From Trichobilharzia szidati (Eukaryota; Platyhelminthes; Trematoda; Strigeidida; Schistosomatidae), in contig OX235277.1 of the NCBI GenBank assembly GCA_944472155.2, positions 13,836,804 to 13,900,803 on the forward strand: a stretch of DNA of 64,000 bases. Direction: 5' to 3'. The notes beneath the pieces were generated by a model. That model ran no database searches. It was not told the DNA's origin and saw nothing but the letters and a program-made list of their open reading frames with translations. The position numbers were made by a program, and so were the translations under genes. Shown here in pieces: positions 396 through 64,000 of the stretch (positions are counted from its first letter, which is position 1; each line of letters begins with the position of its first letter).

Positions 396-3300
396 ATGAG
401 CATTCATTGTCTTTTGTTTTTTCTGAACATTGCATTTATTTCCAAAACGGCTATTGCGGGTGAGTTCCTTCTGCTTTCCATTTGTGATAACGTGTAATAT
501 TAAATCATTTGATCACGCATAAACATAAGTGGTTGAATTAGAAATTAAGAAACTCAAACTAAGCAGATGACCCGTCGTGATTCTTCCAGTTATTTACCAC
601 CAACTAAAGCACAAAGTATTCCACTTTTTAGGATGCGCATTTTTCTCAGTGATTTCTGCAACTCTTATTCGCCTTGTATATTCCAGGTTTTTGTAAGTTT
701 CATTGAAATTGTTTTTCATGCAAATTATTAAATTAGAATATGATGCTTAATGAGCTAGGAGAATTTGGTAAATCAAAGATAATTAGTGATCAAAAACATC
801 AAAATTCAGCAAAGAATCTGTTTTCCCCGGAAAATTCATTTCTATTGATGTACAATTGTAAATAAATACAGGTTATTTCGTATTTGCACATTCAGTTTAT
901 CGCACAAAAATGGAATCGGTTATGGTTACTTTAACTGAACAAGTGAGAATTTGCCTTTATTAATGCCTAAATGGGAATTATTTTTCAATCATAACGTCTT
1001 GTAAATCATCATCACGTCTTGTAAAAGTAATAAGGATATTTCTTTTTTACTTGAAAATGTCTTAATAAAATGCTGCATCTCCTTTTAATATAATTAAAGA
1101 AAATATGCATAATTTGACAATAACTATTATTTACATGAGGAATTTGCTGAAATTCGTGAGATCAAGTTGTTCACCTGAAAATGAAACAAGTGAAAATAAT
1201 CTTCAGATCCTTTAGGTAGGTATGAACGCTTCCTACTTGTGTGACAAAAGTGAAGACCTAGAAGAAACTAAGTGTTTATTTCTGATAATATCTATCGTGT
1301 TTATAATACCAATGGAAACTTCCATTTGTATTAAGATGCAGTTCGTTTTCTTAGATGTTTGATGACTAACGAAGATCTATTGATGAAGATTCCATATACT
1401 CCCAAAAACTGTTTCTTAAGACAAAAGGCAGTCGACTGAATATCAATAAATTAATTTAATATCTACATTTGACGGAATATTATGAGATGACGTATGTCGT
1501 GACTGAGTGAAAACCCTAGAAAAATCATCCAATTTATAACCATATTCGATTTTCAGTCGTATTTTTCGCAGTACTTGGTTTCTGAGCAATCTAAGTTTAC
1601 AGGTGTTGACTTTATGTGTGTAAAGTGTTGCACATATTTGAATTCCACTTGAACTGTTATCTGAAGTAGACATTGTGTGAACACATTTACGAGATTAATC
1701 TTAATATCACTTACCTTCTTTTATGGAAGATGCAGTAAAACAGTACTTTGGATGAGCATAATTTTAACTGCAGGTAAGAAATTCTATAGCTTCCCGTTTT
1801 TCATTCTCTTTCTATATAGATCAATGTAAGTTTCATTCAGGTTGCTCAGATTTGATGTTGAAAGAGAACGGTCGTTTCTACATATTTTGCTGACTGCTTT
1901 ATCACATTTTACCGTCACTCACTTCTAGATTATTCTTGGTAGCAAAAAGAGTTTCAGGATGACTACCTCTGATGTGAATTTTCGACCTTCCCATATCACA
2001 GAATGTATGTCAGTTACCTGATCAAGCCAATGGACAACTCATAGAAATCATTCATATGTATTGAACTATAGCATGTTTCAATTCCATTATAATGGTGAAT
2101 ATTATTTCGAAACAAGCGTCTACAAAACAACTGTTTCTACTTGTGAATGGAATGCTTATTTCTACAAAAATAACTTGTGTTAAGTGGACGGTTTGAATTC
2201 AATGTCACAGCCAATCGTAGTATTTGTTTGATGAAAAGCAACTGAAATATACGTTTGACGAGTGTAAGCTGATTAAATCATGAGATATTTGCAAGACTTG
2301 AATATTCCAAATTCCTCTAATTATTTTAATAATCCGAACTATATCCCTATAATTATTTCTGATATCTTTATACCTACAAAAGTGATGACAGTGGCATTAC
2401 TTTTAAAACTTAACATCATTCAGCACCAAAGTATTAAATTCAGCAAGACACATTTGAGTTAATTTTTTTGTGTTTATGCAGCTAGTTCAAAGTTAATGTG
2501 ATCGTTAGGTAGGAAGGTCATGTAAACAGACTCTGAAATCCATCAATATGGAAGCTTTATGAGTATGGCATTGCAAGTCACATCTATTTGATGAATGCAC
2601 TTTAAAATTTGCCTTTCATGAATTACTATTCGTTCTTTGAATTTACTAGCACATATTAGTAAACATAACAGTCACTGTGTATCTAACCGGGAATATTTAC
2701 GATAATAGTGAAAAGTAAGTATTATTTACATTCATTCATGGAGAGGATTTTAAAAACCATTATCTTCAACATCAGAGTACGTGTTTAATAAATATTCATT
2801 TTATAGTCTGAAATGAGCAAGTAAGGTTAATGTCCTGGGACAAATAACTTCACTAGGATGCCAATAAAGTAAATAACACACGGGGACACCAGTATATGGC
2901 ATCGAATTCAGTAAACTTACAATCGTCGGATAGTAGGTTGAACTTGTTCAATCGTTATTACATCATCGATATGCTGGTAGAGAGGTATTCCAGAAGAAAA
3001 TTAATGTGTAGTAGTTAAATAGTCCTAATGATTTTAAAAATGTGATATAATTCAGGTGATACTGGTAAAAGTCCTATTGGTAAGGTGAGCTTGCACGTCA
3101 GGGAGTGTTCAGGAATCGTATTGCATGAAATTTTTTCTTCCAGTAATAATTGGTTGTCAGGGAATTACTTACACACACATTCTTGGAATAACTCTGCCTA
3201 ACCAGTTGGTTGTTAAGAATCACGTTTAACAGGAATCGCCAAACTTTCAAAACCATTTCTTCATATCCGTCCAAGAAGAGGAAACTAAAATATCCTGTCA

Positions 3301-6300
3301 TGGTCTTATTGTGTTGACTGATGTGATAATATCATTCATTTTGTTCAACTTACGTAGGATTTATCAGCAAGTAATGCTTATTTTGTAACAAAACAAAAAT
3401 GTTTGCAGATAAAGACCTAAGTAAGTTTAAAGTCGCACTTGTTCTTGAAAACGATTTAACCAAGTAGGAAATATGTGTAGGTATGCCTGTGTAGAAATCA
3501 AACGTTTCTAGTATGCAAGTACATTTGAAGATGCCTACCTTCCATGTCTGTGACTTTATAGGTTCCTTGTTAACAATACGCAGATTTAGTCGATTAAGCT
3601 AGATGCTTTTTATCGACCTACAAATTAAAGAATGACGGACGTCTACCTTGCATTTCTAATCCTCACTTTAACATCCTCATCCATACCAGTTGTAGCTGAT
3701 TTTACAGTGCAGGGATAAGTGAAAACACAACTTCTTTCAGCTTCCTTTCGTTGATAACAACTTATGCTCATTGTTGTTGGTTAGCCATCTTCGTTACCTC
3801 TGTCTATCCATAAATCACTTTAAAACTCCTGCTTCTACCACTAATCTGCTGGTTTCATCATGTAAATGTTTGAGTTTGTTCAAGATCAAATATGTCATCC
3901 TTGAAACATTCATCGTCCAGTGTCTTTTCGTCAGTCTAGTGAATGCCTGTCTTCTCATTCCTTATGTGCTACCTCACAATCCGTTCTAACACAGTTAAGA
4001 ATATAATCGGTGATAGTTATTAGCCTTGCCTTACTCTTGTCTTCACTTAGAACGCTTCACTGAGCTTAACGTTGTGAACTTTTGAGTATGTAACATCATT
4101 ATATGGCTGCTGAGTGAATTTTGTAAGTGTTTTCAGAATTATAACTCAGGGGGTTGAGCTTGTTGCTGATGAAATCCTTCATCCAGAGATATTTTAATCA
4201 CTTCAGGATGACACGGTCTAATATTTGTTTGAAGTGGAGAGAAGTTACGTTTTGTGGTAGTTCTTATATAGTTTCAAGTTGTCCTTCTTTGATACTTTGA
4301 GTAGGTAGTCATTCTTCTGATCAGCAGGTGCCTTCTTTTCATCTCCGTCACGACGTCTGAAGCGGTGGCGTGTGGTGTTCGCTGTTATCCCAAGGTGAAC
4401 TTAAGTGCTTTGTCCACTTGGGAGCGGTTAAATCGAGATGAAGACATCTGATGTTTACTTTGTTCATCTGGCAGAACTCATGTCTTTTGACACTAATCAT
4501 CAAATTAGTACAGACTCGGAATATTTCAAGGAAGTCTCCGAAGTCATTCATTTCACCAGTGAAGTGCTTCTTAATCCATGATTAATTGTGTTACTGCATT
4601 TCTGTCCCTTATCCGCCTTTCATTCATATCACCCATTACTCTTTTTTCTTCTTCTGACCTGTGTTGTTCGTTGACGTGTCTCTTTGTTCAATTGTGACAT
4701 TCCTCCCTTCTGGTTGAATCTTTTTATCAAGGTACTGTAGAATTTGATCCTCGTTGCATGGGAACATTCGATTATTTTTGTGACATCACGATAGCCACTC
4801 CCTCGACATGCTAGTTTTTATCCTCTGAGTAACCATGGTGGATTACCGACTCTCTGGTTAGCAATTCCTAGACTTTAATTCCATTCAATCTGCTGTCATT
4901 GATTTATAACACTCCTGTATCACATCTTGTCATTTGTTTATCAATGTGAGCACTTTTGTCAGCGCCAAATATAGTGTGGACATCCGGCGTGTACTGAAAG
5001 GAGGCACACTAACTGACAAGCTCTCAGAAGGCTTTCGTTTATCCCTCGGATTGCATTGTAGAATTTATTTCTGCCCATTGTTTACTATAATTTATGTAAT
5101 TATGGGAATTGATCAAGGTTAGCTTTTCTGGTCTCTCTATTTGTTTTTCATAAGACCTGCTAGTAGATTGGACAAGGCCGTTTGAACCTTTAATGTACCT
5201 CTAACTGTATTGCGAAAAATATTATGTTTGATAATCTCAATATAAATCGTACCTCTTGACAATATCTCATACTTTAAATTTATTCACATGAATCAGTGAG
5301 CAGTGGTTACTGTAGAGGTAATGACCGAAATTTACAGTGGACTCATCGCGTAAGTATAAACTGTGTTTATTCTTATGCGCAATTCCATGAAGCAACTTGC
5401 ATAATATGAAACTTTACAAAGTAATCGACGTAGCATGAACAAGGTTCTATTATATTTATACACATATACCTGGTTTTATGTCTTTCATCTTGATGCCTTG
5501 ACGTGGTTTTCAATTCAAACTTGGAATTAAAAATGGTATAATACAACAAATGTCAATATTTTTTGAGCCAACACTTTCAGGAAAATGCATTCTCATTAAA
5601 ATTAAACACAAAGTAGCGTTTTCAAGCAGTTATAAATTATAACTTACATGAGACCGCGTTTAATCGCTTAGCCAGGAAATTATTATTCCTTCTTCACATT
5701 ATGTTGGAGACGACTGTACTTTTTACACCTGAAGCGATACTTTTTTTTATCGTGAATTGAGGTTGAATGGTCTTTATTTTAAATAATGTCTTTATGTATA
5801 ACATTTCCATAGTTTAGAGTTGAGTTAAGATCAGACGATACTAGGTGTCATATATTAACACTCATCAGTCACGTACTCCAATGTTTGAAACAGATGTCAA
5901 TTTGAGGAAGTTAACACACTTTAAAACAAATTTATTCACTTACCTAACTGGAATAGAATTTCGGTAGAAGTTAATATGTTGATGATACTTTTGAATTGAA
6001 TTGCAGAGTATACTGAAGTGCGTGAGGTGGAGGGTGAGATTATTGTTTGGTTTTTGAGGTTGTTTATTCAATGCAGTCATTTGAAATTCTCATTAGAACG
6101 CTGATATTTGTTTAAATGTGAAAAGTGTGTGTATACACAGCTGACACTCATTTTCACATGAGTATAAGTTGATAAATTACTGATGAATGTGTTACATGAA
6201 ACCATGACAACTGACACCTGCGATTATGTTTATCCCATCACTGCATAGTGAGATTTGTTTTGTCCTATTACAACACATCAATATCGAATGCACAGTCTAT

Positions 6301-8588
6301 TTGTCGCAATAAAAATCTGTTATCATGGTTAACATATATTTTGATATATAAAGCTGATAAGTAGATTTATGCTACTGAGAGAGAAGAAACTTAAATGTAT
6401 ATATAGATATGTAGTTTGGTGGTCAGCCTTAAATGATGCGATGTGGATACTGAAAATTTATCATGAAGAAACCGGCAAATCCTCAGTCAGGATCAAAATT
6501 CAAATCTGTTGACAGATTCTGATTAAACGTTCACATCAAGTTTAGTACCCTGAAAACACTTATAAATTTGCTTTAGTCCGCTTTTCACTCCTTATTAAGA
6601 AATTTCATCGTAGGTTATCTTTTCATGGTTATTTTAATATAAACTAATTTTTGCATGATAACGTTACATATCTGACGGGTCAGGTTGAAAAAACGTTATT
6701 GAGAAATGCTATAGAAGAGCAGTATTTTAATTGTTGAGTATAGTTTTTCTCACACTAAAACGGAAATGTCTCTTGTATTTCATAGCACAATACATAACAC
6801 AAAGCTAAGTAGGCGTAGTGTATAAAGCGAAGCATTTTTTAACTAGTAATTTTTTAACAGTTTTCTGTGTGTGCGAAAGACTCTCCAAAATACTCTTGTT
6901 GACCAACTGTACAGATCGGCGAGGCGGTAAGTGAATTTTACATTGAATTAAAAATAGCGATGTTCAGAACAGTTAGTTTACTTAGTGCAAACAGCTTATT
7001 TGTGTAATAGAAATAAATCAAGCTGAGGGGTATTGTGAACAGTAAATACGTACCACTGTCACTTTAAGGCCTGATATTTTTTCGAAGGATGAGTGTCTTT
7101 TATTTTCTTATTTAAATATACAAGACTTGTTTTCTGGGATGTGTCCTTTAAAGATTTGATTATTTATGGCCTTGCATTTTTAGATGCTTAGCTTAGAAAC
7201 TTATGAAAATGTCTTCTTATTTCAATACATTTTCTTCTCAGGAGTTGAACACTTGATCAGCTTCAGGATTATTTGAAACCAGAAGATTTCCTTGCAGTAA
7301 ATGTTTATTTCTGATTATAATCCAATGATTTTGTTGAGAGATTTCCGCATTTTCATTTTAGAAAAATTGGGTAAGTTTGAATCTGTTTAATGACCGGAAC
7401 CTAATAAAGTTAATGTAAACTTATGTGAAGAATGCCGCAAATGATTGTAAGATATCCATAAACTTGATTGATTACAGTCAATAATAATCAGAGAACACCA
7501 GCTTAAATAGTATGATTATGTTTGCAAAATTCTTTGTGAAGACATCCGTCTACTTTCATTTTCTGACAACACTGATGAATTTGCTGGCTGGAACAATGCA
7601 AATTTTGGATCAATTTGAGTTACATGAATGTTACTACAAAATGTACTCCATGTGAAAGTCTCATCTTGGAAGACTTATAGCAAATTTCGACCATTAAACG
7701 TTAACGGCTTCTGTATTTTTGCAAACGTTTTCTGTCACAAAAATCTGAGTAATACGTTCGGTGTTAAGTGCCAAGTTTGGTAATAAATTCTTTACACTTA
7801 AAATTTATGTTGGGCTGAACAAGCAACTTTATCGTTAGTCTTTCAATCAGGTAATGTAAGATTTAACCGGAATACTGAAAGGCAAAATAAAGAAGTGAAG
7901 TAGATTGAGGTATGGTGTCCGGTTCCAGTTCATGCTTCAAGTTTGACAGCATAATTTCAGATGGCATCCTCCAATCAAATGGTGGTATTTCTGTATGCCT
8001 CACGAATGGATCAGAAGTAGACAGTAGGATAAAATGAAGTGGAAATGAACTGTCACGTCAATTACAACGAGACATGCTCAGTGACAGGAAGATTTAATTA
8101 TTAAACGCAGTGGTTCCTCTTTTATTAAATTAGCGATATCAATTGCCATTTATGAAGAGACTGTTGCAGCGTGCAACATTAAGACAGCTGAGATCAAGAC
8201 CACATTTCTGTAGTGATCTTTGATTTTGCACACAGTTTACAGGGCTGTAAATACTCCAAAATTGCCTACTTGACATTAAAATAAGTGATAAAGAGTCCTT
8301 CTAGCACATTCCTTGCTCAATGTTTTCTAGTGCATATTATATGAAAGGATAAAAGTACGTTCTGAAGAAAGATGAATAAATCTGAGACGGGAAATAGGCA
8401 TTATATAAAATCATGTAATATATAACCTCCTTCATATTCATTGCTTTGATACATATACATATGTATATATCTCACTTGTAATACTGAACATTTTGTTAAT
8501 TTCAGGTCCATTGTTTTTATGTGTACTACTGATTCTCATACTCAGCTTATGCGTTTATTTGTTAGGTTTTTTTCTACTCATTCCTTAA
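396..8588 (+). CDS. Micro-exon gene copy A: signal peptide, micro-exon ectodomain, C-terminal membrane helix
   Basis: Exons read from splice signals and comparison with copy C: 396-459 (64 nt), 687-692 (6), 2709-2714 (6), 3056-3079 (24), 3409-3420 (12), 5338-5349 (12), 6007-6033 (27), 6915-6926 (12), 7362-7370 (9), 8506-8588 (83 with stop). Every junction is phase 1, every internal exon is a multiple of three, donors are gtaag/gtgag/gtaaa-like and acceptors are AG. The joined frame is open for 84 codons. Exon 1 gives a 21-residue signal peptide starting MSIHCLLFF. The ectodomain is about 35 residues and includes SDTGKSPI, DKDL and QYTEVREVE. The last exon is a Leu/Ile/Phe-rich helix ending LLIP, then TAA. 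This matches the schistosome MEG architecture; I cannot assign a numbered family. A possible extra exon at 1140-1189 is 50 nt and would break the frame. The exon at 2709 has a weak acceptor tract and is the least certain. Confidence 0.77.
3530..5130 (-). mobile_element. Decayed RTE (SR2-like) retrotransposon in an intron of copy A
   Basis: On the minus strand 4560-4340 reads like the RTE endonuclease end (MNDFGDFLEIFRVC, compare MNENGELFLDFCAF of the better element at 8722-11225). Positions 4078-3940 match its reverse transcriptase region and 3720-3640 its C-terminal region. The order fits one minus-strand element with deletions. Positions about 4600-5130 may be more endonuclease but are too degenerate to be sure. 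No intact frame remains. Confidence 0.55.
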
Positions 8589-8721
8589 TGCTTTTTTTAC
8601 ACCTACTGTTATCCACATCGCTTCCGAAATTCTCAGTGATTCATACTGCGTTCCATAAATGACATTTTGATGCATAAAAATTTGAATTCCCAATATTTGT
8701 GTTTTAGTTTCGATTAGACTT

Positions 8722-11444: not shown

Positions 11445-14400
11445 CTAGGGAATGAGTAGAAAGAAACCTAGCAAATAGCCACACAAACTTAGTATGAGAA
11501 TTAGTAGTACATACAAAAACAATGGTTCTGAAATTAAACAAAATTTCCAATATTACAAGTGAATTGTAATGCATATCAGACCAGTGACAATGAAGGCCTT
11601 AAAATATTTCAATGTTTTATGTATTTATTAATACATATATCAATTTAGGTCAAGTTGATTTTATGTCTCATCATATATCATTCAGTAGGACACGTTAAGC
11701 AAGGAATGAACATTGGGGATTCATTAAAAATGGCATAAATAGGAAAGCGACATTAAACCACTTGCTCCGCTTCAGACTACCTTTAGGATAAACTATCACT
11801 CGAAAAATAAATATTTCTGCCTCGATCACTGCTGTGTTTTCACTGTGATCTTGGTCACAGCTATCAACAGGGTGCACGCCTAAGCAGTCTATTCATAAAC
11901 AGTAATTTCTATCATTGATGTCAGAAAGAAGTAACTACTGCGCCTACTCATTTCAATGTTGCAATTCTTGTAATATAGCACCTCTTCACATAGTTTTTCC
12001 AGTCAGTGAGCATATGTTGTTGTAAGTCATGTGAAATTTCATTTTCACTTTATTTCGCCACACTGTGTTCTTTCGATCTGTCTCCAAGTGTTCCACGTGA
12101 TTTTGTCGCTTCCTGACTCGAACATACTTCTTTAGCCAGTCACAGATGTTTAGTTTAATACACTTTCGTTATTAGATTACACATCACAAGAAAGCACTTT
12201 TCACGAAACATGTCGGTACGATATTCTTGACAAAGCACTTATTTTGTAAATATAGTTACTTTGAATTGGTGTGAGTGACACTCTGTTACATGCATTTACA
12301 GAAGCTGGTGACCTCCTGACAACTGAGACTAATTAATGTGGAATATGGATTTTGTAACATGCGTGTAATTAAAAGTAATCAGAAAACTGTGTTTCTCCAG
12401 TACTTTCACAAAATGAAAGAAGACCAACATGACTGTCAGCAGTATTCCTTAAGTTTCTCAAATATTGTCACACTATTTAAGCTAGTCATCTCCTGGTATA
12501 GGTGGCTAGAATCAACCAGGTTTTATCGATGTCTGAAAATAATTTATGGCATTCTTTGTTTATGTCAGCATTAGGCTCATAGAATTTCACTCATATAATA
12601 AATCAGGCCTTACCTAATTCTTCTAAAATGAAAATGAAAGCTTTCTCGATTAAAACATTAACCCACATAAACCATCGTTTATTGCGAAAAAAACTTCTTG
12701 TTTCAAATGCCGTTTTTATTCATCAAAATTGTGTCTCCCTCAGAGGAAGTAGATTCACAAGATACTATAACTTTGATAAGATAAAGAGACTAAAACTGAG
12801 ACACGTAAAGAACGTGTATCAACTCTTTTTCTCCACTAAGTTTTGTGTAGGTATATGAACGGTTATGAAAATCGCCACATAAAATGGAAAATCGTCATTC
12901 ATCAAAATCCTGAAACTAAGCATCCTAATCCATATATCTCATGTACGTGTCAACATGAAAATCAAAGATATACACCCATTTGTCGCCTTATTGAAGATAT
13001 CAGACTTAAAATGCAAAGTGATCGAATGCTTCTACAGTTGTACATATTTACTACATATGCTATGCTTTTTTAAATGTATATTTTTATTCGATGAACAACA
13101 AAACTAACTGTTTTAATGTTGCTACTCAGAATTCGAGTAAATAACACTTACCGGCATTCTTCTCTGCAGAGTTGGTCAACAAAGGCATTTGGAAGGATTT
13201 TCGAACACAAGTAAGTCAGTTTAACAATTGATTACATATACATTACTTTTTAATATACAACGTCTCCAACGGTTTTTCTAATAATTTGTATTGAGTACAC
13301 AATATGCCGATTCATTTGTGTGTAAAAGAAACATTTTCTCTGAGGTTCAGCGATTATTTAGCTGTACCTCACAAAATGGATGCAAATATCCCTTTCCTGA
13401 CTGGGCAAACAAAATTATATTTGCCTAACGATGAAAAACAATGTTTGCATCAGTAATGATATCGAGGTGATAGATCAATGTGAAATTTAGTAGGTGGGGA
13501 GATGATTTGCAGAGTGGAATGAATATCTCAACATTTTATGAAAATTAAACTCAGGGTGGATTTTAAAGTGGTATACGTTTGCATATTAAAAAAGTTCATG
13601 TTAACTAGGAATGTACCAGTCTCTTCAAACTATTTATATCTTGAATATTCTAATTTTCCTGATAACTTATTTCAAATTAGTTTTTTTATTTGTGTTAGTT
13701 TTTTATGGAACGTGCTTCACGAATCACTATGGGTTTATTTTGCAAATATTTTTATACCCAAACTTCTTTCAAATTTGACCCCTCAGAAGTACTAATCAAC
13801 CATAGTTCGAACGCCGGAGTAAATTACAAGGCGAGCTTATATACCATTCAGCCTCTGTGACTTGACTCACAAATCCATAAATCCTGCCTTCCACCAGTTC
13901 GTGACTTTAGAGTGACCGCCATCTGGTGTCTGCGACTAGTGTTTGTCTGTACTCCTGATCGGGTGAATCCCACTGGATGCGACTTCTCACTTGAAGTCAG
14001 GGCATCTTCGTCCTCCAGCCACTCACTAGACAGTATTCGATTTAATGGCTGGTAGTCACGCCAGAATCACAAATTGGCAGAAATTAGTATTAATTGGCCA
14101 CTGAGTCGGGTCCCAGTGTCTGAATAGTCTCTGAGTATGCTTTTTACCTGAATGTTCCTGGTTTCGAAATACAGTGAGGACGTGCTACCGATTTGTCTCA
14201 TCCTGAGACGCGACATCTATCTAGTACTTCATGCTGGTTTTCACTGGTTCTCTAAGTGAAATCAATCAGTTGTTAAACTTGAAAAAAATCAAATGCCTTC
14301 AAACAAACTCAAGAAAATGTATGTAGATTGTGGAACTCCATCTGAGTCTGACTTTACATCGGTGTTTCAGTCAGACATAATGAAAGTCATTATATGTCGA

Positions 14401-17400
14401 ATTTAATGTAAATTGAAAACTATTTAAGATAAATAACAGCTTAGGTATGAGTCTACATAATTTCATCCAAAACAATCTACATTATGTCCTGAGCTTATTT
14501 GCATGTGCAACTAACTTCAAGTTGTTTATAGGCACTTCTCTCGTATTCAGTTAAATTTAGGTTTCAATATGCAAAATTGTAAATTACTGTATTCAATATA
14601 TAATCTCTAAAAATTAGGCAATATTCTCACCATCCTCTCCACGCAGTTCACGATAAACTGATATGTGTGGCAAATTAAAAAAAATGTTCATTATTTCAGG
14701 ATTTATTCTCATTATTTATTATTATTTTTTATTACTTATTGGAATATAGAATTCTTTTCTCAAAGCCAATAATTCCAGTGCAATGAAAATTCACTAAGAC
14801 TTAATCCCACAATATTGTGTTTCATGAAATATCTCACCATAGTTAAAACTATGACCTTAAGTGTATAGAATCCTTTTCTTTCACATAGATTATATATCCA
14901 TTCTGTGAATAATCAATAAGAAATCACTTTTTTAACTAGTTGAATAGACTTTAATTGAGGAAGAAAATATTTTATTCCTCAAATAAGTCACTTGAGAAAA
15001 TATATCAACATTTGCACATGATTATTTCAGAAAGTAAGGCAGAAAAGCTTTATTAAGATAACCTATAATACCTCGGGTTTGTGAACAGCTGCACGTTATG
15101 ATATAAAGCATTTCAAATGTCATCTTTTGTGGTTATTTGCATATTGTTTTCAATCTGGCACCTATTAGTACGAATGAGAAGGCACATTCACTAATATATT
15201 TCAATTGATTTTAAATACTTCAACATACGTCTCCATATTGTGTCACAACTTTATCAGAATTACACCTCAGGATCCAAGTTACAAAAATGATTTAACGGTA
15301 TTTTCTGAAACGAAACATTACCTCTGTATTCACTTGTGGTACTCAGTAGATTTTCTCAATCATACTGAACTGTCGTATTGAGCATTGTTTTGAGAGATAA
15401 GGATGCCGAAATCAAGGTATAAGTGGGACCTATTTCCATGTCATTTTTCCGAGGAATTCGATCAATAAAATGACCCACTTAGGTGTAATTTTAAGGGAAT
15501 TCACTGCATACAAATTTTTCAGTGAAAGTGTTTAGACCAGGGACATTGGACTTTGTTAAATATTTATTCATTGTTCATTCAGATTACAAATCGTGAAACA
15601 ATAAAATAATAGATAAGAATGGTGAGTATCAAGATGTTTTCATTCACAAACGCTTGATGATTCCTACGTTGACGTGAAACTATACATTTGCATATCATAC
15701 ATCGTGTTCAAGAATAAGTACAGGTGACACTCACTCCCCGGATCATCTGCAAATAATTTTAATTAGCAGCGTTGTTGTGGATATTCACTGATGACTGAAA
15801 AGCAATTTACAGCACGAACGACGACAGCAAACCTGTTGTGATCATGAGAAGGCGTGTTTTCTGCTTCATGTTCGGAAGTAAACAACAGGGACTGAATGAC
15901 TTATTCTTAAATGATACCAGAAAAACCAGAAATGAATATCTCATTTCGCTTTGATATTAACTGCAATTAAAGCCTTTATTTATGAAACATGTATGTCACT
16001 CTGTTTCGTGAGTCGCTAGATATATCAATCAGCACCCCAAATCATCTCGAAATGTTTAATGTATATCCTCATCCCGTGCAACATTCTCACCATATGTATA
16101 TCTTAGTTTTAAAATAACCAACGAAATAAACTACTGTCAACAGTGACGCCTGTAATAATTTATTACTGCGTATACAGATATGTGAGTCAGTCTATTTTGT
16201 CAATTACATTAGACTGTTGTGCTGCATAACTTAGTGGGAAATACAGACGCAAAAGGCAAAGATAAGTGGCACCAGTGTTCATGTCAGTGTTTATTCGGAG
16301 ATTTTGACGCATATAGAAAGTTTTTCTCTGCTTACATCTAAAGTGATTATTTCAGATGAAATGTAGCGCAAATGTTTGCACCACGATATCAAAATATACT
16401 GCTTACTTCCAGGCTTATTTCGATTACCGATCAGGAATCCATAAAGGCACTCAAATTTGAAATTAGGTATGAAGATAGAAGTACACACTAGCACTATAGG
16501 ATTCCTACGCCGGCATTGTTCTACATACTTTCATACTAAATATTGTGCCTCGTAAAACCAAGTGAAAGAATAATTACAGTGTGTACTTACCGAACCCTTC
16601 TGTAAATATTCCCAGGTAGCTTTGCAGAAACTAATATTTGCTGATATTTGAAACACTAACTAAAATAGTAAATGACATTACAATGGTAGGAAGCATGCTG
16701 AGGTTATGGAATGGAATATATCTTGCTACATAATTAGAAGAAAATTGAATATTCAGATTGACTTAAGATGAAGGGGTATCAGAAAAACTGAAAATAATCT
16801 CCATTGATTGCGATTTGTTTAGAAACATCTTGGATGATACGTCACAAAACACTGTGCCTTTAAGTATACGAAATTTATGTGTTCTTAATAAACAATGCTT
16901 TCAAATCAATCTGCTGGACTATTGGAAAAGTTAAAAAGTCTTGATGTGTAATGATTTGTGGATCATATTTCTCCAAGGAGTGATTCAAGAAATGCTCGTG
17001 AAAGTGACTTCTAATCAGTTGAATCAGGATGGGAGGAAAGAGTTTCAAGTAATAAGATTCCTCATGACTCGTCACCAGGCAAATGTTAATTACTAGGACT
17101 AACTTATAAATACAAAAACCTGCACTGCAAGCGAAAATCGCCTCAAATAATCTGTGCACTGTGTCACATTTTCATCAGAATTACATCAGAGTTCCCGGAT
17201 TACCAAAACTATTCGGCTGATTTCGTCATTCATATTCAGCCATTAATTTTGCTACCAAAGTAGGACTCTAATGTTGTGTGAAGCAGTAAAATCTAATAGC
17301 ATTAAAATTATAAAGTGAGCTTTTTACACTGCTATTGTTTGTCCGAAGAATCTGGTGGTTTACAATAGCGCCTACTGGTGGAATTAGTTATAAATGCATT

Positions 17401-22270: not shown

Positions 22271-22385
22271 CTTATATACACCAATAAGTGAAATCCAGGT
22301 AAATCAATTCTTGTTTTATAACAATAAATAGTAAACGTTGAGTTGAAATGGTAATCCATGAAAGCAGACAGCCACAAAACTACGT
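22271..22385 (-). promoter_or_regulatory. Promoter of copy B with TATA box
   Basis: The TATA box (tatataag) reads on the minus strand at 22278-22271, 43 nt before the ATG. The conserved upstream block is at 22385-22351. Confidence 0.6.
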
Positions 22386-25465: not shown

Positions 25466-25475
25466 TAATTGTATT

Positions 25476-28075: not shown

Positions 28076-28099
28076 TACATATTATTTGTTGTGAAGTGG

Positions 28100-42339: not shown

Positions 42340-42460
42340 CTTATATACTACAATATCCGAAACCTAGACAAATCAATTGCTATTTTCTAACAGTGAAAAC
42401 ATATCTTAAGTTAAACTAGTAATCAATGAATGCAGACAGCCACAAAACTATGCTTGCATG
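42340..42460 (-). promoter_or_regulatory. Promoter of copy C with TATA box
   Basis: The TATA box (tatataag) is at 42347-42340 on the minus strand, 43 nt before the ATG. The conserved upstream block is at about 42460-42423. Confidence 0.6.
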
Positions 42461-54411: not shown

Positions 54412-54525
54412 CGTAGTTTTGTGGCTGTCTGCTTTCATAGATTACCATTTCAACTCAACGTTTACTGTTTATTGTTATAAAACAAAAATTGATTTACCTG
54501 GATTTCACTTATTGGGGTATATAAG
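54412..54525 (+). promoter_or_regulatory. Promoter of copy D with TATA box
   Basis: The TATA box (tatataag) is at 54518-54525, 43 nt before the ATG. The conserved upstream block is at 54412-54450. Confidence 0.6.
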
Positions 54526-54567: not shown

Positions 54568-57500
54568 ATGCACGGCAGTTATCTTCTGCTTTTACTGACA
54601 ATCGTATTTATTCCGAAAACAGCTGATTCGGGTGAGTAAAATATTTTGGTGAATTTGTGTCATTTCTCATGTGTTATAATGTAAAATCACTGTAGTATTA
54701 AATAATTCCATTCTATAATTACACAAATGTTCGAATTAGCTAGTTGACTTTATTGGCAGTATGATAAAACAAAGCCATGAATCTAACCATATATTTGTCT
54801 TTAGGCCAAACACCATTTTGATTAGTTTTCGTGATGTAGACATCTGAAACTTTCGTCATGATATTCATGTTATGGACTCTGTTATTTTGATTTGTATGTA
54901 GTGTATTTCTTACTTTGGTGAGCATTTCGAGGTGGAGTAAAATTTGAAAGGGATGTCAGTGAGATTCTGTCGTTACTTGACACGCTCATTCAGCTATCTG
55001 TCTACCTTTTATTTAGTGCTATAAGTTAATGAGGATTTCTAGCGATACATTGTTCACTTAACGGAGAAGCTTCACAATGATCCGGTATACTGAATAACCC
55101 GAACAGTTCAAAGTAAGATTCACACAAATATGTCTTCATCATATTTGAAACTTCGTTACTTTATTTATATACAATTCGAAATTCATAAAACTGAGTTACT
55201 CACATTTTAGAATACCTTTCAGTGGATAGATAACTACTGGAGCGAATGCAGCATTCCTCCAGTGGATTTTTAACTCTTTCTGAGATACAATAATCACCTT
55301 TGTTCTTAAAATTCCTAAGACGTTTAATGGTCGCTTTTCATCGTTGAATGGGCTATTGATCAGCTTTGTAACCGCTTAACTTGTTGTCAGGATATGTGAA
55401 AACGTATTGATTATTCTCAGCGCTCATTAACTCCAGGAGTCATTCTGTGCTAATTTTAAATGAATTATGGCTATTCATTTTATCAAACTGTTAGAAGTGA
55501 ACTTGGTTTGGACATATGAAATCAGTGAAGTATCTTCAGCCATTGTTGTTTTTCGAGTGAACGTAATACCGCAAAGCGCATAAACGCAGAAGATGTCATA
55601 AGTTGTTATCTTGTGTGAACTTGAAAACAGCATCAAAATGTTGCGTGTCTTGATCGACATATGGTATCAGATGACTGTTTCACATTTCCAATGATTTTCT
55701 GAAGCTTGATGTGGAATATTTCCGAGAAGTCGCATAGCAGATTTACAAAAATGCTCTGGGAAAATATTCTGCATCTAATACTTATTTGTGAAATCCTCTG
55801 GTTTGCAAATTCACTTAAGGAGATGAAAATCTTCTAAATACTTGCGTGGTTGGCCAGCGTTCTACAGCTGAACTTCTAACGCATGATACGATAATATTGG
55901 TATGAATACATGGTGACGCCATGCTAAATAAAATGAAAATTCTGTTACTGGAGTCCACCCAAAATACAATTTTTTCGTCTGGTCGACCTCCAGTAACCAT
56001 CAACAGCTCTATTAAGGTGTTTTCGACCTAAAATTTTCTTCAGATATGTGTGTAGATGCACTCAAGAACTCCAAACTAAGAAATTAAGTTTTTAAATGTG
56101 TTTGCTCAGTGATTTCTTTACTTCTTATATTTCCTGTATATACCAGGATTTTGTGAGTTACACTAACATTATGATTCAAGAATAATCACCAATTAGGACT
56201 TAAAGTTCATTGAGGTGGAGGAAGAAGAAAATCGAAGTTTGATAGTGACAACACCAAGGGAATAATCTGTAATCAACATCATCAGAAGCATTTGCGTCTT
56301 TTAGCAGTTATAAGGGTGATGATCTATTTCTTCTGTATGTACCAGTGCTTGTGCGGGATGCCGAAACGTTTTCCGTATAAGTGAAGCAAATACTCGTAAT
56401 TTGATGGCGACTGATATTCATATTACATTTTTACTGAAATACGTGAAATCATGTCATTCACTAGAAAATGAGCCAAGTAAAAATAATGCTGAGATCAAGA
56501 GCTTAGGTGTGAACGGTTCGTTAAAAGACTGACAATCTAGGAGAAACTGGAAGTTGTACAAGGAATTCTAACCACTGTACTCTGAAATATTCTGCAGATT
56601 GATAATTGTCATTTAGGACTATCGACATCTTGACTAGAATGTCATGAAAATCCCAGATGTCATTGTGAATCAGTACCGTTGTTTGAGTTACTTAATGATT
56701 AACTTAGATCTAATGATGACGACTGGATATTACTCCGTTAAATCATTTCCAGACGGAAGACAGTCTGCTGAAAAATGTTCAGTATGAATAAATTAGATTA
56801 TCAGTAGCATTTGGCAGACTTTTAAATGATACCCCATTGTATGACTGGCTGAAAATCGTATTCATAATGTGTAAATTACGAGCACATTCGATGTTGTCCA
56901 CTATTTCTCGCACTCAAAAATTTCAAAGCAATCTGATTTAAAGTTGAATGACAGACAGTGTGTAAAAAAGTGCACGTAGTCATATTCAACGATATATTTC
57001 AGTGAATCATATGCTGTGCTTAAAGATGAGAATGTTGGGAGTCGTGTGTATGAGGTTAATTTTATTACGAGTTATCTACTTGTGAGGAGGTTGCAGCGAA
57101 GCACCACGATATTAGTATTCTTTTATGTACAGTTTGCAGATTCCTTAAACTGACATTCTTCATCCTCCTTTAATGTAGACAAATGTAAGTTTATTTAACA
57201 CCTCCTGGATTTGATGCAAATTGTGGGACGACAACAGTCAACCATTCTGTGTCTCACGGATTGCCTAATCATATTATTTTTTCCATTAGTCATTGTCAAG
57301 TTTCAAACAATGTCTCAGGATCATCTCTTTTGATGTGAATACGTTGCCTTACCATACTTCAGATTCCATATTAGTTTGTTTATTAGATGTATCACACAGT
57401 GAAACCGTATTGTTTATTGGATGACATTTCAAACAAAATTTGTTGTTCATAATCATATCAATTATAATCACACGACTTTGACACTTGAGTTTTATGGTAT

Positions 57501-60500
57501 TTTTTGTTCTCTCCTATTTGTCTTAGAGGTTATCAGGAAATATGTAGGGGAATGTAAAAATGAAATAAATAATGATAGTAGTGATATTGATAATAATAAT
57601 ATTAATGACGACATGCATGTCGAATGTGCGCAAGCAACACCAACAATAAGGAATCTAAATCATCAGTAGTAATTCCACACCAGAAGGGAACCTCGGAAGC
57701 CTTACGCAGAATTCTTAACAAGGCAGGAATAAAAGCTGCAAGCATTCAAACTCACAAAGTCAATTAGAAACAAGCTTTGTTGATTGAAGGATCCTGTGGA
57801 GCCTTCAAAACAAACGAATTTAGTTTATTTAATACCCTGCAATGATTGTCAGGTCAAATACATAGGTCAAACTAGTAGAACAGGTGCAGTCAGACTAGCC
57901 GAACATAAAATCCAATCAAAATCCAGATTGGTTGGCCTGAATAAGATAAGGAATCCAGAGAATGGTTCAGATATAGCACTATATGCAGTTACACACAACC
58001 AAACAATAGGATGGGATAGGATGACAGTTTTTAAATATAACATCACACTGGGGGAGGGAGAGATTGATAACAGAACCTTTGTTTATCGCATCAACTGCTA
58101 ATACGTGTGATAGGAACGATTCAACACCTGTCTAAGATATCTGAAAAATCCCACTACCCCCACGACAAATAGGAGAGGACAAAGAAAACTATAAAAATCT
58201 ATATAAATAATACTGTTTCACTGTGTGATACATCTAATAAACAAACTAATATGGAATTACTTACAAACACATCTTAACATACCACAGATTATCTAACAGT
58301 TACCTGATCCTCACTGTGGAATGTTTCTAAACTGCCTATTCTCATCATATAGTTTACTACAATATGCTTCAGTTGTATATTCAGAGTAAATTTTCGCGTG
58401 TTACACAGACTGATTTTCGTGTTCATTAATCAAATACATCCTAAATCTTCATGACATGCTTCAAAGCTATTTAGACCCTTTGTTTTCAAATGCAGCCGAA
58501 TATAACACATTTTCTGTCAGTAACGTGACCTTCACTTGCAATGTTTATCAATCGCCAGTCTTCATTTATTTTTACTAGGATTTGGCGGATATATTAGTTT
58601 TGATGAAGCTGCCCACAGAAGGAATAGCTTTATTTTGTGAATTGAATGTTTTGTACATAAAAGAGAAAGTGCTACACAGCGAACGTTCAAAATTGTATAA
58701 AGAGACTTCCTGTTTAGAGGATACTTTGAATTTAGTGTAAGGGGTATTAATACATGTTTTTGTAAGAAAAGTATCTGAGAAAGTTGTATCACACTCACTA
58801 TAATTCAGAGTTACAAGAAATCAATATATAGGATTTGAATATTTCAAATTACTGATAAAATTATTATTTATATTCTTATATCTACTGAAGTGATGACACT
58901 CATGTCACGTTTTCGAATTGAAATACCTTCTGATCTAAAATATTAAACTGAGTACATTTTAATTTACAAGTAGAGTTGTCTTAAATTTATAGTTCATTCT
59001 GTTTATGCAGCAGAAATAACGTGATTGTGCACGTTAAGGAGGACATGAAAATCGCATTTGATATTGTATAACGCCTTAGTTCCATTAATTTTCAGTCACA
59101 TGCTACTGTAGATCACATCCATTTGATTGAACTGCACATCAAAGCTAACTACACCTGACTGATCAACACTGATCAAATCTTTCACTAACTTCCAACTCTG
59201 AGAAATCACCACGTCATGAATCACTATTCATTCTTTGAATTTGCGTTGCATACAAACCACTGAATAATATTCGTTGTGTGTCTAATTGGGAATGTTCGCA
59301 ACATTAGTGCCAAGTAAGTATAATTTGAATTGTATTCATGAACAAGATGTTTGAAACCATTATGTATAATATTCAAATATGCATTTTGATAAACTATCAA
59401 ATTACAATCGACAAGAGTAACAAAATTGGTATCTTGACATGAACAATTTCATATAAATCCACTTATAACTAATTCCACCAGGAAGCGCCATTTTAAACCA
59501 TCAAATTCGTTGGACAAACAATAGCAGTGTAAAAAGCTCAGTTTATAATTTCAACACCTTTAGTTTTCACTGCTTCACACCTGATTGGAATCTTTATTTG
59601 GTAGCAAAGTAAATGGCTGAATACGAATGACGAAATCAGTTGAACAGTTTTGGTAATTCGGTATTTCTGATGTAATTCTGATGAAAATGTGACACAAAGG
59701 ATAGATTATTTGAGGCATTTTTTGCTTGCGGTGCAAGTTTGTATTTATAAATTAGTCCTAGTAATTAACATTTGCTTGGCGACGAGTCATTGGGAATCTT
59801 ATTACTTGAAACTCTTTCTTCCCATCCTGAATCATCTGATTCAAAGCCTCTTTCACGAGCATTTCCTAAATAACTCCTTAAAATATGACACACAAATAAA
59901 AATCATTACACATCAAGACTGGTCAACTTTTCCAATAGTCCAGCAGACTGGTTTGAAAGCACTGTTTTATAACAACACATAAATTTCGTATACATAAAGG
60001 CACAGTGTTTTGTGGCATATCATTCAAGATTTTTCAAAACAAAACGCACAGAATGGAGAGTATTTCCGCTTTTTCTAATACCCCTTCATCTTAAGTCAAT
60101 CTGAATGTTCTATTTTCTTCTAATTATGTAGCAAGATATATTCCCTTCTATAACCTCAGCATGCTTGCTACCATTGTGATGTCATTTACTTTTTTAGTTA
60201 ATGTTTCATGTATCAGCAAATACTAGTTGCTGCAAAGCTAATTGAGAATATTTACAGAAGGATTCGGTAAGTACACACTGTACTTATTCTTTCACTTGGT
60301 TTTACGAAGCACGATGTTTAGTATCAGAGTATGTAGAAAAATACCGGCATAGGAATCCCATAGTGCCAGTGTGTACGTCTATCTACATACATTTTATTAT
60401 TTTTTTCCTTCACGTTCCCCAGTGGAACATAGGGCTTCAAGCTAGTGGCTTGAAGTTTCTGTAGCAGTATTTTTTATACAGGATGGGGTTGCTAGCCTCA

Positions 60501-63500
60501 TGCCCAAACTTTCCTCCCTACCAAAATTATTTCTTGCTCAGCGAGGTAAAGGATTGCGTCGGCCGGGGATCGAACCTCAGACCATGTGCATGGTCGCCGA
60601 AATAAGCATGGAAACTAAGCAGTAAATTTTGATATCCTGGTAGAAACATTTTTGCTACAATTTATCTGAAATAATCACTTTAGATGTAAACAGAGAAAAC
60701 CTTTCTGTATGCGTCAAAATATCCGAATGAACAGTGACAAGAACACTGGTGTCACTTATCTTTTGTCTTCGGCATCAGTATTTCCCACTATGTTATGCAG
60801 CACAACAGTCTAATGTAGTTTACAAAATGGACTGACTCACATATCTGTATATGCAGTATATAAATTATTACAGGAGTAACTGTTGACAGTTTATTTTGTT
60901 GGTAATTTGGAAACTAAGATGTACTTATGGTGAGAATGTTGTACGGGATGAGGATATACATTAAACATTTTGAGATGATTTGGGGTGCTGATTGATATAT
61001 ACAGCTAATCACGAAACAGAGTGACATACATTTTTCATAAATAATGGCCTTAATTGCAGTTTATATCAAAGCGAAATGAGATATTCATTTCTGGTTTTTC
61101 TGGTATCATTTAAGAATAAGTCATTCAGTCCCTGTTGTTTACTTCTGAACATGAAGCAGAAAACATGCCTTCTCATGATCACAACAGGTTTGCTGTCGTC
61201 TTTCGTGCTGTAAATTGCTTTTCAGTTATCAGTGAATATCCACAATGATGCTGCTAATTAAAATTATTTGCAGATAACGAGGGCAGTGAGTGTCGCCTGT
61301 GCTTATTCTTGAACACGATAAACAATATGCAAATGTATAGTTTCACGTCAACGTAGGAAGCATCAGGCGTCTGTGAATGAAAACATCTTTATACCTACCC
61401 TTCTCATCTATTATTTTATTGTTTCACGATTTGTAACCTAAATGAACAATGAATTTACATAATAAAGTCGAATTTCTTGGTCTAAACACTTTCACTGAAA
61501 AATTTGTATGCGGTGAATTCCGTTAAAATTACACGAAGGTGGATCACTTTTATGATCGAATTCCTCGGAAAAAATGACGCACAAATAGGTCCCACTTATA
61601 CCTTGATTTCTGCATCCTGATCTCTCAAAACAATGCTCAATAGACAGCTCAATATGGTTGACAAAATCTACTGAATACCACCACTGAACACACAGGCAAA
61701 AATTCACTTAAGAAAATACCGTTGAATCGTTTTTGTGACTTGGAACCTGTAGTGTAATTCTGATAAAGTTGTGACGCACAATATGGAGAAGTATGTTGAA
61801 ATATTTAAGATGAATTGAAATATTAGTGGATGTGACTTCTCATTTGTAGTAATAGGTGCCAGATTGAAAAAAACAATACAAATAACCACAAAAGATGACA
61901 TCTGTATTGCTTTATATCATGACGTTTGGTTGTTCATAAACCCGACGTATTGTTGGTTATCTCAGTAAAGATTTTTTGTTTTAGTTTCTGAAATAATCAT
62001 GTGCAAATGTTGAGATATTGTCTCAAGTGACTTATTTGAGGAATAAAATAATTCCTTCCTCAATTCAAGTTTATTCAACTAGTTAAAAAGTGATTTTTTA
62101 TTAGTTATTCACAGTATGGATATACTCTATGTGAAAGAAAAGGATTCTATACACTTAAGGTCATAGTTTTTACTATGGTGAGATATTTCATGAAACACAA
62201 TATTGTAGGATTAAGTCTTTGTGAATTTTAATTGCATTTGAATTATTGGCTTTGAGAAGAAAATTCTGTTTTAGGACTGAAACAAGTTCATTTCAAGAGG
62301 GAGTAATACGGTTTGACCTTTACTGGCTATATAATCAGGAGTTTTAGAATAGATTTCAAGTTCACATAGTTCACAATACATTCACGTAATAAACATGTCT
62401 CACACAATTTCAGATTGAATGGTCTGAAAAGGTTTGAATAATACGAAAATGACACTAAAAGATAATAGCAAATCATAAAAATAAGTTATGATTAATGAAA
62501 TAAATAATTAACAAATATAATAATGAACATTTTTACAATATACAACAATTCTTAGTGTATAGGGAATTACGAGATAATGATGGTGAGAATATTGGTTTTT
62601 GTTTAGAGGTTATACATTGAATGCACTAATTTGAAATTTTGCACATTGAAACCTAAATTGGACTGAATACGAGAGAAGTGTCCAGTTGCACATGCAAATA
62701 AGCTCAAGACGTAATGTAGGTTGTTTTGGATGAAATTATGTAGACTCATACCGAAGTTGTTATTTAACTTAAATAATTTTCAACTTATATTAAATTCACC
62801 GGAAAATGACTTTCGTTATGTCTGTTAAAACACCAAAGTAAAAAATCAATGTCAGCTGGAATTTCAAAATCTATATATATATATAGATTCAAGAGTTTGA
62901 TTGCAGGAATTTGATCCGTATCAAGTGTGAGAAGCAAGGAGTACTAGATAGATGTTTCTTTCCACTTTGGAACTCACTGGTAGCATGGACTCACTGGATT
63001 TCGAAATCAAGATCATTCAGTTACAAGGCGTAATCAGGGACTATTCAGACACTGGGACTCGAATCAGTGGCCCATTAATACCGATTTCTGCCAATTTGTG
63101 ATTCTGGCGTGACCACCAGCCAATTAATCGAATACTGTCTAGTGAGTGGCTGGAGGACGAAGATGCCCTGACTTCTAGTGAGAAGTCGAATCCAGTGGGA
63201 TCCACCCAATCATGGTGGTCACTCTAAAGTCACGAACTGGTGGAAGGCAGGATTTATGGACCAGTGAGTCAAGTCACAGAGGCCGAATGGTCTATGAGCT
63301 TGCCTTCTAATTTGCTCCGGTGTTCGAACTATGTTTGATTAGTACTTCTGAGGGGTCAAATTTAAAAGAGGTTTGGGTATAAAAATATTTGCAAAAGTAA
63401 CTTTCAGTGATTCGTAAAGCACGTTTCAAAAAAAAATAAAAAACTCATTTGAAATTAGTTATCAGGAAAATAAGAATATTCAAGATATAAATAATTTGAA

Positions 63501-64000
63501 GAGATTAGTGGCATAGCGGTTGGGACGCTCGCCGACCATGCACATGGTCCGAGGTTCGATCCCCGGCCGACGCAATCCTTTACCTCGCTAAGTCAGAAAT
63601 AATGCTGGTGAAGAGGAAAGGTTGGGCATGAAGCTAGCAACCCCATCCTGTAAAATAAAGACTGCTACAGAATCTTCGAGCCACTAGGTTGAAGCTCTAT
63701 GTTCCACTGGGGAACGCGAAGGAATAAAAAAATTAACATGAACGTTTTTAATATGCAAACGTACACCACTTTAAAATCCACCCTGAGTTTAATTTTCATA
63801 AAATGTTAAGATATTCCTTCCACTCCGCTAATCATCTCTCACTACTTAATTTCACTCTGATCTATCACCTCGATATCATTACGGATGAAAACTAAGTTTT
63901 TCATTGTTAGGCGAATAGAATTTTGTTCACTCACTCAGAAAAGGGATATTTGCATCTATTTTGTGGGAAACAGCTAAATTATCCCTGGACCTCAGAGAAA
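54568..64000 (+). CDS. Micro-exon gene copy D, 3' end outside the window
   Basis: Exons found: 54568-54631 (64), 56147-56152 (6), 59308-59313 (6), 60258-60266 (9), 61274-61285 (12), 62556-62582 (27). Junctions are phase 1 and the frame stays open. The signal peptide starts MHGSYLLLLLTIVF; later pieces are KGF, DNEG and MYREL RDND. The exon homologous to B exon 3 (56435-56476, 42 nt, same open frame, good gtaaaa donor) has AC where B has the acceptor AG, so it is probably skipped. The 27-nt exon is full length here, unlike in B. The 12-nt, 9-nt and terminal helix exons expected from B lie beyond 64000, so I cannot tell whether the gene is intact. Two SINEs have inserted into its introns since it split from B. 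Confidence 0.7.
56346..56374 (+). other. Possible extra exon of copy D (LVRDAETF)
   Basis: This is the counterpart of the B block at 20411-20447. It has a tgtaccag acceptor and a gtataa donor, 29 nt, which would end in phase 0 and so disrupt the phase-1 chain. It may be a decayed exon. Confidence 0.25.
56435..56476 (+). other. Exon 3 of copy D with lost acceptor (AG to AC)
   Basis: The block aligns base for base with B exon 3 (20315-20356) and keeps an open phase-1 frame ending SLENEP, but the two bases before it are AC instead of AG. A (1140-1189) and C (41513-41563) also lack the B acceptor at this position and would need an upstream atgag site. Confidence 0.5.
57364..58258 (+). mobile_element. 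Penelope-like element with inverted terminal repeats (copy D intron)
   Basis: Inverted terminal repeats at about 57366-57410 and 58210-58256 extend inward with divergence. The interior encodes a GIY-YIG endonuclease fragment; no reverse transcriptase is visible, so this is a short, internally deleted copy. Confidence 0.7.
57784..58101 (+). pseudogene. Penelope-like GIY-YIG endonuclease fragment
   Basis: The frame of 105 codons reads KDPVEPSKQTNLVYLIPCND, then CQVKYIGQTSR and AVRLAEHK. This is the Penelope-type GIY-YIG domain: VY.IPC..C followed by YIGQT and a basic EH motif. Upstream (57690-57780) another frame reads SEALRRILNKAGIKAASIQT before stops, the usual linker. It lacks the RT domain and is a relic. 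Confidence 0.7.
59689..59982 (+). other. ORF in copy D intron, conserved in copy B; coding status unknown
   Basis: 97 codons, partner of 16875-17159. It contains VCIYKLVLVINICLATSH and FHEHFLNNSL. Hydrophobic N-terminal part, no recognised domain. Confidence 0.25.
60393..60600 (-). mobile_element. 5'-truncated SINE with RTE-like tail in copy D intron
   Basis: On the minus strand it begins within the tRNA head (accatgcacatggtctgagg, ttcgatccccgg) and ends gccctatgttccactgggga, similar to the 3' end of the RTE. It has replaced about 50 bp present in B (around 16420-16470), so it is younger than the B/D duplication. Confidence 0.75.
62945..63325 (+). repeat. Sm-alpha-like tRNA-headed repeat in an intron of copy D
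   Basis: Counterpart of 13800-14240. The tRNA-like portion is near 63280-63320 (ggtctatgagcttgcc ... gttcgaac). It includes a small hairpin, gacttc/gaagtc, near 63169-63186. Confidence 0.45.
63507..63730 (+). mobile_element. Full-length tRNA-derived SINE with RTE-like tail in copy D intron
   Basis: The head has an A-box-like tggcatagcggttgggac and a B box ggttcgatcccc. The tail ends gaagctctatgttccactgg and then a short A-rich stretch. The homologous site in B (about 13590-13620) has no insertion. Confidence 0.8.

Follow-up and report, generated by a model that had tools for sequence, protein, structure and literature searches.

What is made from exons of only a few nucleotides (nt), and how does a family of such genes change without losing its reading frame? 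The question is raised by a 64,000-nt stretch of the Trichobilharzia szidati genome (contig OX235277.1, here C7, positions 13836804-13900803; "the window" below), which carries four related genes, A to D, built like the micro-exon genes (MEGs) of schistosomes. Each is predicted to consist of ten exons: a 64-nt first exon for a signal peptide, eight micro-exons of 6 to 27 nt, and an 83-nt terminal exon for a hydrophobic C-terminal helix. The family has at least 29 terminal exons, and an intact gene, joining signal, eight micro-exons and helix exon, likely encodes a small membrane-tethered, host-facing peptide, a reading to which we assign a probability of about 0.72 on the basis of the sequence. 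The ten-exon layout is conserved and the joined frames are open, the helix exon is constrained, exons 5 to 8 evolve fast, and two copies are chimeric. The best reading of this pattern is that the family has diversified by duplication, by recombination in introns, and probably by alternative splicing.

The gene models derive from a search of the whole genome (1.114 Gb in 907 contigs), from which 35 stretches with further copies were fetched, oriented and aligned, so that an exon reading made by eye was replaced by a comparison of copies. Gene A (396-8588) and gene D (54568 to about 2 kilobases (kb) past the window end, with exons 8-10 outside) lie on the + strand, gene B (22228-11445) and gene C (42297-34692) on the - strand. 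Internal exons measure 6, 6, 6, 12, 12, 27, 12 and 9 nt in A and C, and 6, 6, 6, 9, 12, 27, 12 and 9 nt in B and D. All internal junctions in the four genes are in phase 1 and all eight micro-exons are symmetric, giving open frames of 78 codons in A, 98 in C, and 77 in each of B and D. The usual stop codon is changed in gene C, where the frame continues for 20 codons and adds a polar tail after the helix; among the four window genes, C is the only one with such a tail. The stop place is also altered in one further copy (g9), which is otherwise damaged.

Much of this agrees with an earlier note on the same DNA. The shared signal-peptide exon of exactly 64 nt with a phase-1 end is present in A-D and in all 20 of the A-type copies fetched. 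The internal exons of A-D do join in phase 1 as proposed, within a size range that ends at 27 nt and not at 51, and the terminal helix exon attributed to A, B and C occurs in D as well, outside the window. Frames given as 84 (A) and 104 (C) codons are corrected to 78 and 98; an 18-nt exon with a GTRAG donor, which would supply the six extra codons, was not found in A or C. The pairs A/C and B/D are indeed inverted, but over window positions 300-900 the closest relative of A is the copy at C7:13991007 (85%), with C at 82%. The "cluster of four" consists of four related genes that form a small part of the family. Two exons of the by-eye reading of gene A were discarded: one of 53 nt at 5297-5349 breaks the frame and is replaced by a 12-nt exon with conserved splice sites, and one of 66 nt at 6861-6926, whose upstream acceptor is absent in C and in the copies shown from contigs C5 and C6, is now 12 nt long. 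The predicted features are as follows.

345..351, + strand: gene A, diverged TATA-like site starting 51 nt before the ATG (from the sequence; position aligned in 20 copies and D)
396..459, + strand: gene A exon 1, predicted signal peptide, 64 nt, ends in phase 1 (copy comparison)
687..692, + strand: gene A exon 2, 6 nt (6 nt in 18/20 copies)
1820..1825, + strand: gene A exon 3, 6 nt (6 nt in 19/20 copies)
2709..2714, + strand: gene A exon 4, 6 nt (6 nt in 20/20 copies)
3409..3420, + strand: gene A exon 5, 12 nt, fast evolving (12 nt in 16/20 copies)
5338..5349, + strand: gene A exon 6, 12 nt, fastest evolving (present in 17/20 copies)
6007..6033, + strand: gene A exon 7, 27 nt, fast evolving (present in 18/20 copies)
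6915..6926, + strand: gene A exon 8, 12 nt, fast evolving (present in 19/20 copies)
7362..7370, + strand: gene A exon 9, 9 nt (present in 18/20 copies)
8506..8588, + strand: gene A exon 10, 83 nt, predicted C-terminal hydrophobic helix and stop
22271..22279, - strand: gene B, TATA site starting 51 nt before the ATG
22165..22228, - strand: gene B exon 1, predicted signal peptide, 64 nt
20630..20635, - strand: gene B exon 2, 6 nt
19608..19613, - strand: gene B exon 3, 6 nt
17522..17527, - strand: gene B exon 4, 6 nt (alignment; under the scan score threshold in B itself)
16591..16599, - strand: gene B exon 5, 9 nt
15735..15746, - strand: gene B exon 6, 12 nt
14631..14657, - strand: gene B exon 7, 27 nt (alignment and homology)
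13152..13163, - strand: gene B exon 8, 12 nt
12614..12622, - strand: gene B exon 9, 9 nt
11445..11527, - strand: gene B exon 10, terminal helix exon
42340..42348, - strand: gene C, TATA site starting 51 nt before the ATG
42234..42297, - strand: gene C exon 1, predicted signal peptide, 64 nt
42019..42024, - strand: gene C exon 2, 6 nt
41122..41127, - strand: gene C exon 3, 6 nt
40173..40178, - strand: gene C exon 4, 6 nt
39468..39479, - strand: gene C exon 5, 12 nt
37889..37900, - strand: gene C exon 6, 12 nt
37287..37313, - strand: gene C exon 7, 27 nt
36365..36376, - strand: gene C exon 8, 12 nt
35907..35915, - strand: gene C exon 9, 9 nt
34692..34774, - strand: gene C exon 10, terminal helix exon, read 20 codons past the usual stop, which is altered
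54517..54525, + strand: gene D, TATA site starting 51 nt before the ATG
54568..54631, + strand: gene D exon 1, predicted signal peptide, 64 nt
56147..56152, + strand: gene D exon 2, 6 nt
57179..57184, + strand: gene D exon 3, 6 nt
59308..59313, + strand: gene D exon 4, 6 nt (alignment; place scored in stretches g6, g10 and g11, not in D or B)
60258..60266, + strand: gene D exon 5, 9 nt
61274..61285, + strand: gene D exon 6, 12 nt
62556..62582, + strand: gene D exon 7, 27 nt (alignment and homology; exons 8-10 beyond the window end)

The strongest support for these models comes from the splice sites. Across eight further C7 copies, 138 of the 142 aligned splice dinucleotides are preserved (70/71 donors and 68/71 acceptors), against a background of about 71% in the rest of the introns (GT kept in 2421/3388 cases, AG in 2054/2892). 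This conservation is more than chance would give. Frame keeping of the micro-exons by itself is not decisive for coding, because 3 of 63 micro-exon instances break the frame compared with 6.7% of random intron segments; projected to the 20 A-type copies, 147 of 152 internal exon instances are divisible by three. A plain pattern scan of nine C7 copies, made without a trained model, yields 23 candidates, 14 in addition to exon 1 and the eight micro-exons. In a splice-score scan of lengths divisible by three, which is partly circular, the eight micro-exons alone reach at least 7 of the 9 copies, and no extra micro-exon does so (the best, 1207-1215, is found in 4/9). Longer overlapping exon combinations are also among the candidates of a wider splice-score scan, which included a rejected segment at 1774-1825 that scores as high as real exons but whose length in A is not divisible by three. 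When scores trained on A-type copies are applied to the B-type stretches, exons 2, 3, 5, 6, 8 and 9 are found at corresponding places; exons 4 and 7 of B and D were placed by alignment and homology.

Upstream of the first exon, the exact motif GTATATAAG starts 51 nt before the ATG in B, C and D, accounting for three of the four exact sites in the window. Gene A carries a diverged form at the same place; of the four TATA promoters proposed, three have the exact site. With one mismatch allowed, the motif occurs 20 times in the window compared with 19.5 expected from shuffled sequence. Because it is no commoner than that, the evidence for the site is its fixed position.

The predicted products begin with a hydrophobic stretch, continue with about 30 polar residues, and end in a hydrophobic run. 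In A, B and D the exposed part has a mean hydropathy of -1.3 to -1.4, and the best 19 residues of the C-terminal run, which extends almost to the last residue, reach 2.7-3.0. Two patterns, G-F-x-x-L and Y-x-E-x-R, are invariant in the exposed part of 12 aligned copies. The C-terminal run would fit a transmembrane anchor, a glycosylphosphatidylinositol (GPI) signal or a membrane-active helix, the last two remaining compatible because the helix is C-terminal and without a tail. Among the 256 possible subsets of the eight micro-exons, 241 are free of internal stops in A, 196 in B, 253 in C and 199 in D, and nine more copies have 163-241 stop-free subsets each (1842/2304 in total). When the letters of the micro-exons of A-D are shuffled, the means fall at 76-88 of 256. 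The joined frames would permit micro-exon skipping, and with it alternative splicing.

Rates of change differ sharply along the gene. They were taken from the nine aligned C7 copies minus g4, which has no exon 6, leaving eight; the per-exon comparison also drops copies of differing exon length. Exons 5-8 show 0.255 differences per site in this set versus 0.139 (standard deviation 0.029) in intron windows, and 1 in 10,000 random sets is as high, while the helix exon shows 0.082, with 1.25% of 83-nt intron windows as low or lower. Across 16 copies the values are 0.302 for internal exons, 0.202 for flanking introns, 0.100 for the helix exon and 0.145 for the signal exon. The contrast between exon and intron is greatest in exons 5, 6 and 8; exon 4 is fast across all 16 copies, not within C7, and exons 2, 3, 9 and 10 are no faster than their flanks in the larger set. 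The ratio of nonsynonymous to synonymous change (dN/dS), was estimated from 11 copies (five on C7 and six on C5): the signal peptide has 0.41, the exon 4-8 core 1.07 and the helix 0.44. For the core it is 0.77 from C7 alone and 1.2 from C5, and for the helix exon it ranges from 0.26 to 0.51. The helix exon is thus under constraint, and the exon-intron contrast suggests selection for change in the core. Introns around the micro-exons align at about 80-85% within the cluster.

The genome searches give copy counts that are lower bounds. The A-type 5' end is found in at least 20 places matching 312 to 601 of 601 query bases (11 on C7, seven on C5 and two on C6), the B-type 5' end in at least five full-length places (D itself and four at 83-90%, B included) with three partial or distant ones, and the terminal exon in at least 29 matches on three contigs. 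Since three of the fetched stretches (g2, g8 and g10) hold two terminal exons apiece, the genes number fewer than 29; in g2, exons 8-10 are present twice. Ten exons and an open frame are found in 14 of the 20 A-type copies; among these, exon 5 of h6, k1 and k2 is 9 nt long and poorly scoring. Of the B-type stretches, five in all, the models of B and D are complete and open, with g6, g10 and g11 outside that group; in g10 the aligned position lacks a start codon.

Two copies are chimeras between the subfamilies. The first, g3 (C7:13775200-13783900), is an A-type copy modelled without exons 6 and 7. Compared in 400-base steps, its first 3.6 kb are 77-97% like gene C, followed by about 1.2 kb without a match and then by sequence that is D- and B-like, up to 97% to gene B. 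The second, h6 on C5, changes from A-type to B/D-type (73-85% to D) between exons 8 and 9. In both cases the breaks lie between recognised exons and therefore in introns, and because exon phase is uniform the joined frame is open in both models. Judged by their titles and the opening lines of their abstracts, none of six papers found on MEGs with exon shuffling or gene conversion describes chimeric MEGs.

A comparison with known systems places the family close to the MEGs. These have a signal peptide in the 5' exon and symmetric exons of 6-36 bp (PMC5825161), and like the window family they combine central micro-exons with a longer 3' exon, small products, clustering and a schistosomatid genome (PMC4671649, PMC5825161, PMC10526429). 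The MEG-like reading of the earlier note is sustained by this architecture and by the organism: the signal peptide, judged by its N-terminal hydrophobic stretch, is predicted in the longer 5' exon, and the central micro-exons, at 6-27 nt, are below 36 nt and mostly symmetric. In contrast, MEGs carry about 80% of their coding sequence in micro-exons (PMC5825161), whereas in gene A the share is 90 of 237 nt (38%), the entire exposed part being encoded there. A further difference is that every junction in A-D is in phase 1; exon lengths that are mostly divisible by three are shared with the MEGs. Two protein profile searches recovered no relative, and no sequence link to a named MEG family: the whole protein gave none at E<=0.001 among 7977 candidates scored and the signal-plus-exposed part none at E<=10 among 3061, with sensitivity limited by candidate pre-selection and by the shortness of the proteins. 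We therefore call the family a variant built like MEGs and assign it to no named family, since the layout matches, the 80% share is not reached and no relative was found.

A membrane helix and 6-nt exons, the combination singled out earlier as deserving a name, are each already known among MEGs. Besides the published exon sizes, membrane anchors are predicted for MEG-11, -14 and -32.1 (PMC5825161) and for MEG-14, -29, -32.1 and -32.2 (PMC4671649), which share with the window family a signal peptide and a micro-exon centre, and whose predicted anchor may have a counterpart in the hydrophobic helix here. This likeness is drawn from their description, which predicts O-glycosylation for the anchored MEGs, heavy in most; the exposed part here is only about 30 residues. 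What is unusual is the combination of fast central micro-exons, chimeric copies and the lack of a sequence relative in these searches. In number, at least 29 terminal exons compare with eight clustered MEG-2 genes reported in Schistosoma mansoni. MEG transcripts have been reported from T. szidati itself, some of them not close to S. mansoni MEGs (PMC6362228). Further afield, aphid bicycle genes are fast-evolving putative effectors with many micro-exons, nearly all of which begin at the second position of a codon, like those of the window family, but they belong to unrelated animals, average about 17 exons and are expressed in salivary glands, so that the likeness is one of analogy only (PMC9168663). 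A set of Schistosoma japonicum genes pairs a conserved core promoter and signal sequence with otherwise varying genes and flanking retroelements, as here; those genes differ in arising by dispersed duplication, and the main text of that paper does not use the word micro-exon (PMC3434034).

In the mechanism that we propose, the conserved TATA site would drive transcription, the micro-exons would be spliced together, and the product would be exported with its signal peptide cleaved. The C-terminal helix would then tether the product, or a GPI anchor would replace the helix, leaving about 30 exposed residues to face the host, with a possible role in meeting host blood or the immune system; T. szidati, a parasite of birds, is also a cause of cercarial dermatitis in humans (PMC7800666). 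Exon skipping may add variants. Duplication, recombination in the long introns and exon skipping would reshuffle cassettes of uniform phase with the frame unbroken, while the secretion signal and the anchor stay fixed at the two ends. A tentative extension of this scheme, possible but well short of probable, is a combinatorial surface-peptide system: dozens of clustered genes with fixed start and anchor exons, whose micro-exons would be swapped both by germ-line intron recombination and by exon skipping in RNA, so that the exposed peptide varies like an antigen repertoire and the products remain exported and anchored.

Several results weigh against our reading of a constrained coding family with a fast-changing exposed part. 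The splice-score model was trained on the same exons, leaving the pattern scan and the B-type scan as the independent ones; the former has the eight micro-exons as 8 of the 23 candidates listed, and the latter scored exon 4 in three of five stretches (g6, g10 and g11) but missed it in B and D. The signal exon, at 0.099 differences per site in the C7 set, is slower than introns but not significantly so (10.6% of windows are as low), and exon 7 is barely above its own flanks (0.226 vs 0.212, C7 copies). Synonymous sites in the core are also fast, at 0.28-0.35, so that positive selection is not proven, and the exposed part has no excess at third codon positions. Five of the 20 A-type copies (g4, g5, g7, g9 and g12) are damaged or incomplete in the fetched stretch.

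These five copies, together with the changed stop of C, the missing start codon in exon 1 of g10 and a retroelement with a reverse transcriptase match between A and B, would also suit a decaying cluster, once MEG-like and now mostly dead, whose shared exons persist only through the youth of the copies. That is very unlikely: splice sites are kept far beyond the intron background, the helix exon has a low dN/dS, and 14 of 20 A-type copies, as well as B and D, are open. The fast exons might instead mark a local hotspot of mutation or gene conversion with no selection for variety, a view that fits the speed of both synonymous and nonsynonymous change, a dN/dS near 1 and the existence of recombinant copies. 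Such a hotspot would need to end at exon borders, because exons 5-8 change faster than the introns on either side of them, and exons 2, 3, 9 and 10 do not exceed their flanks across the 16 copies; we therefore consider it unlikely.

The nature of the product invites two other explanations. It could be a secreted membrane-active peptide whose C-terminal helix inserts in host membranes, as proposed for esophageal-gland MEGs. In A, B and D the helix reaches the very C-terminus with no polar tail, and MEG-8.2 has lytic activity on host cells (PMC12998952). The segment is uniformly hydrophobic and anchor-like, however, whereas the helices of MEG-8.2, MEG-12 and MEG-26 are described as amphipathic (PMC5825161, PMC4671649, PMC12998952), with three such helices in MEG-8.2 against the single uniform one here (PMC12998952), and this makes the idea rather improbable. 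It is unlikely, too, that we are looking at a named MEG family diverged past recognition in bird schistosomes. Counterparts of MEG-4, MEG-8 and MEG-9 are reported in Trichobilharzia (PMC5825161, PMC12998952), and MEG-8/9 resemble the window family in placing a hydrophobic C-terminal part in the last exon. Against this stand the two profile searches, empty within their limited sensitivity, and the phase of the terminal exon, whose first base is codon base 2 in A-D and the open A-type copies but base 3 in MEG-8/9 (PMC5825161). A tethered, host-facing peptide remains our preferred reading of the product.

The surroundings of the four genes contain several other features. Retroelement remains occupy window positions 8727-11021 on the - strand, between A and B, with matches to RVT_1 (E 7e-28) and DUF6451, and a second piece at 25472-25643 is 92% alike over 172 nt; we read the element as non-LTR (lacking long terminal repeats). 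A direct repeat (31991-32248 and 47434-47673, about 80% identity) lies outside the exons of the four genes, and a 258-codon stop-free frame without a Pfam match runs on the - strand between B and C (27330-28103). A 208-nt inverted pair, its members 89% alike, sits in two introns of gene D (60393-60600 and 63529-63736) and is likely a dispersed repeat. Rfam returned no match at gathering scores within the window. Elsewhere in the assembly, the mitochondrial contig C907 (25,169 bases) contains COX1 twice, 14,244 bases apart, and for that reason has the look of a circular molecule that the assembly went round nearly two times. The COX1 frame is open under the flatworm code, and its protein is 100% identical, over 98% of the query, to that of T. 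szidati; the next match, from S. japonicum, reaches 82%.

That the mature part of MEGs evolves at an accelerated rate, with a slower signal peptide, was already known (PMC4350168). Exons this short escape de novo gene finders (PMC4671649), and the protein collection searched yielded no relative of this family. Because the introns of its copies still align within the cluster, these copies show how a micro-exon family diversifies, with fixed ends, a fast middle and recombination in introns, and the question of whether micro-exons serve host-facing variety becomes testable within one genome.

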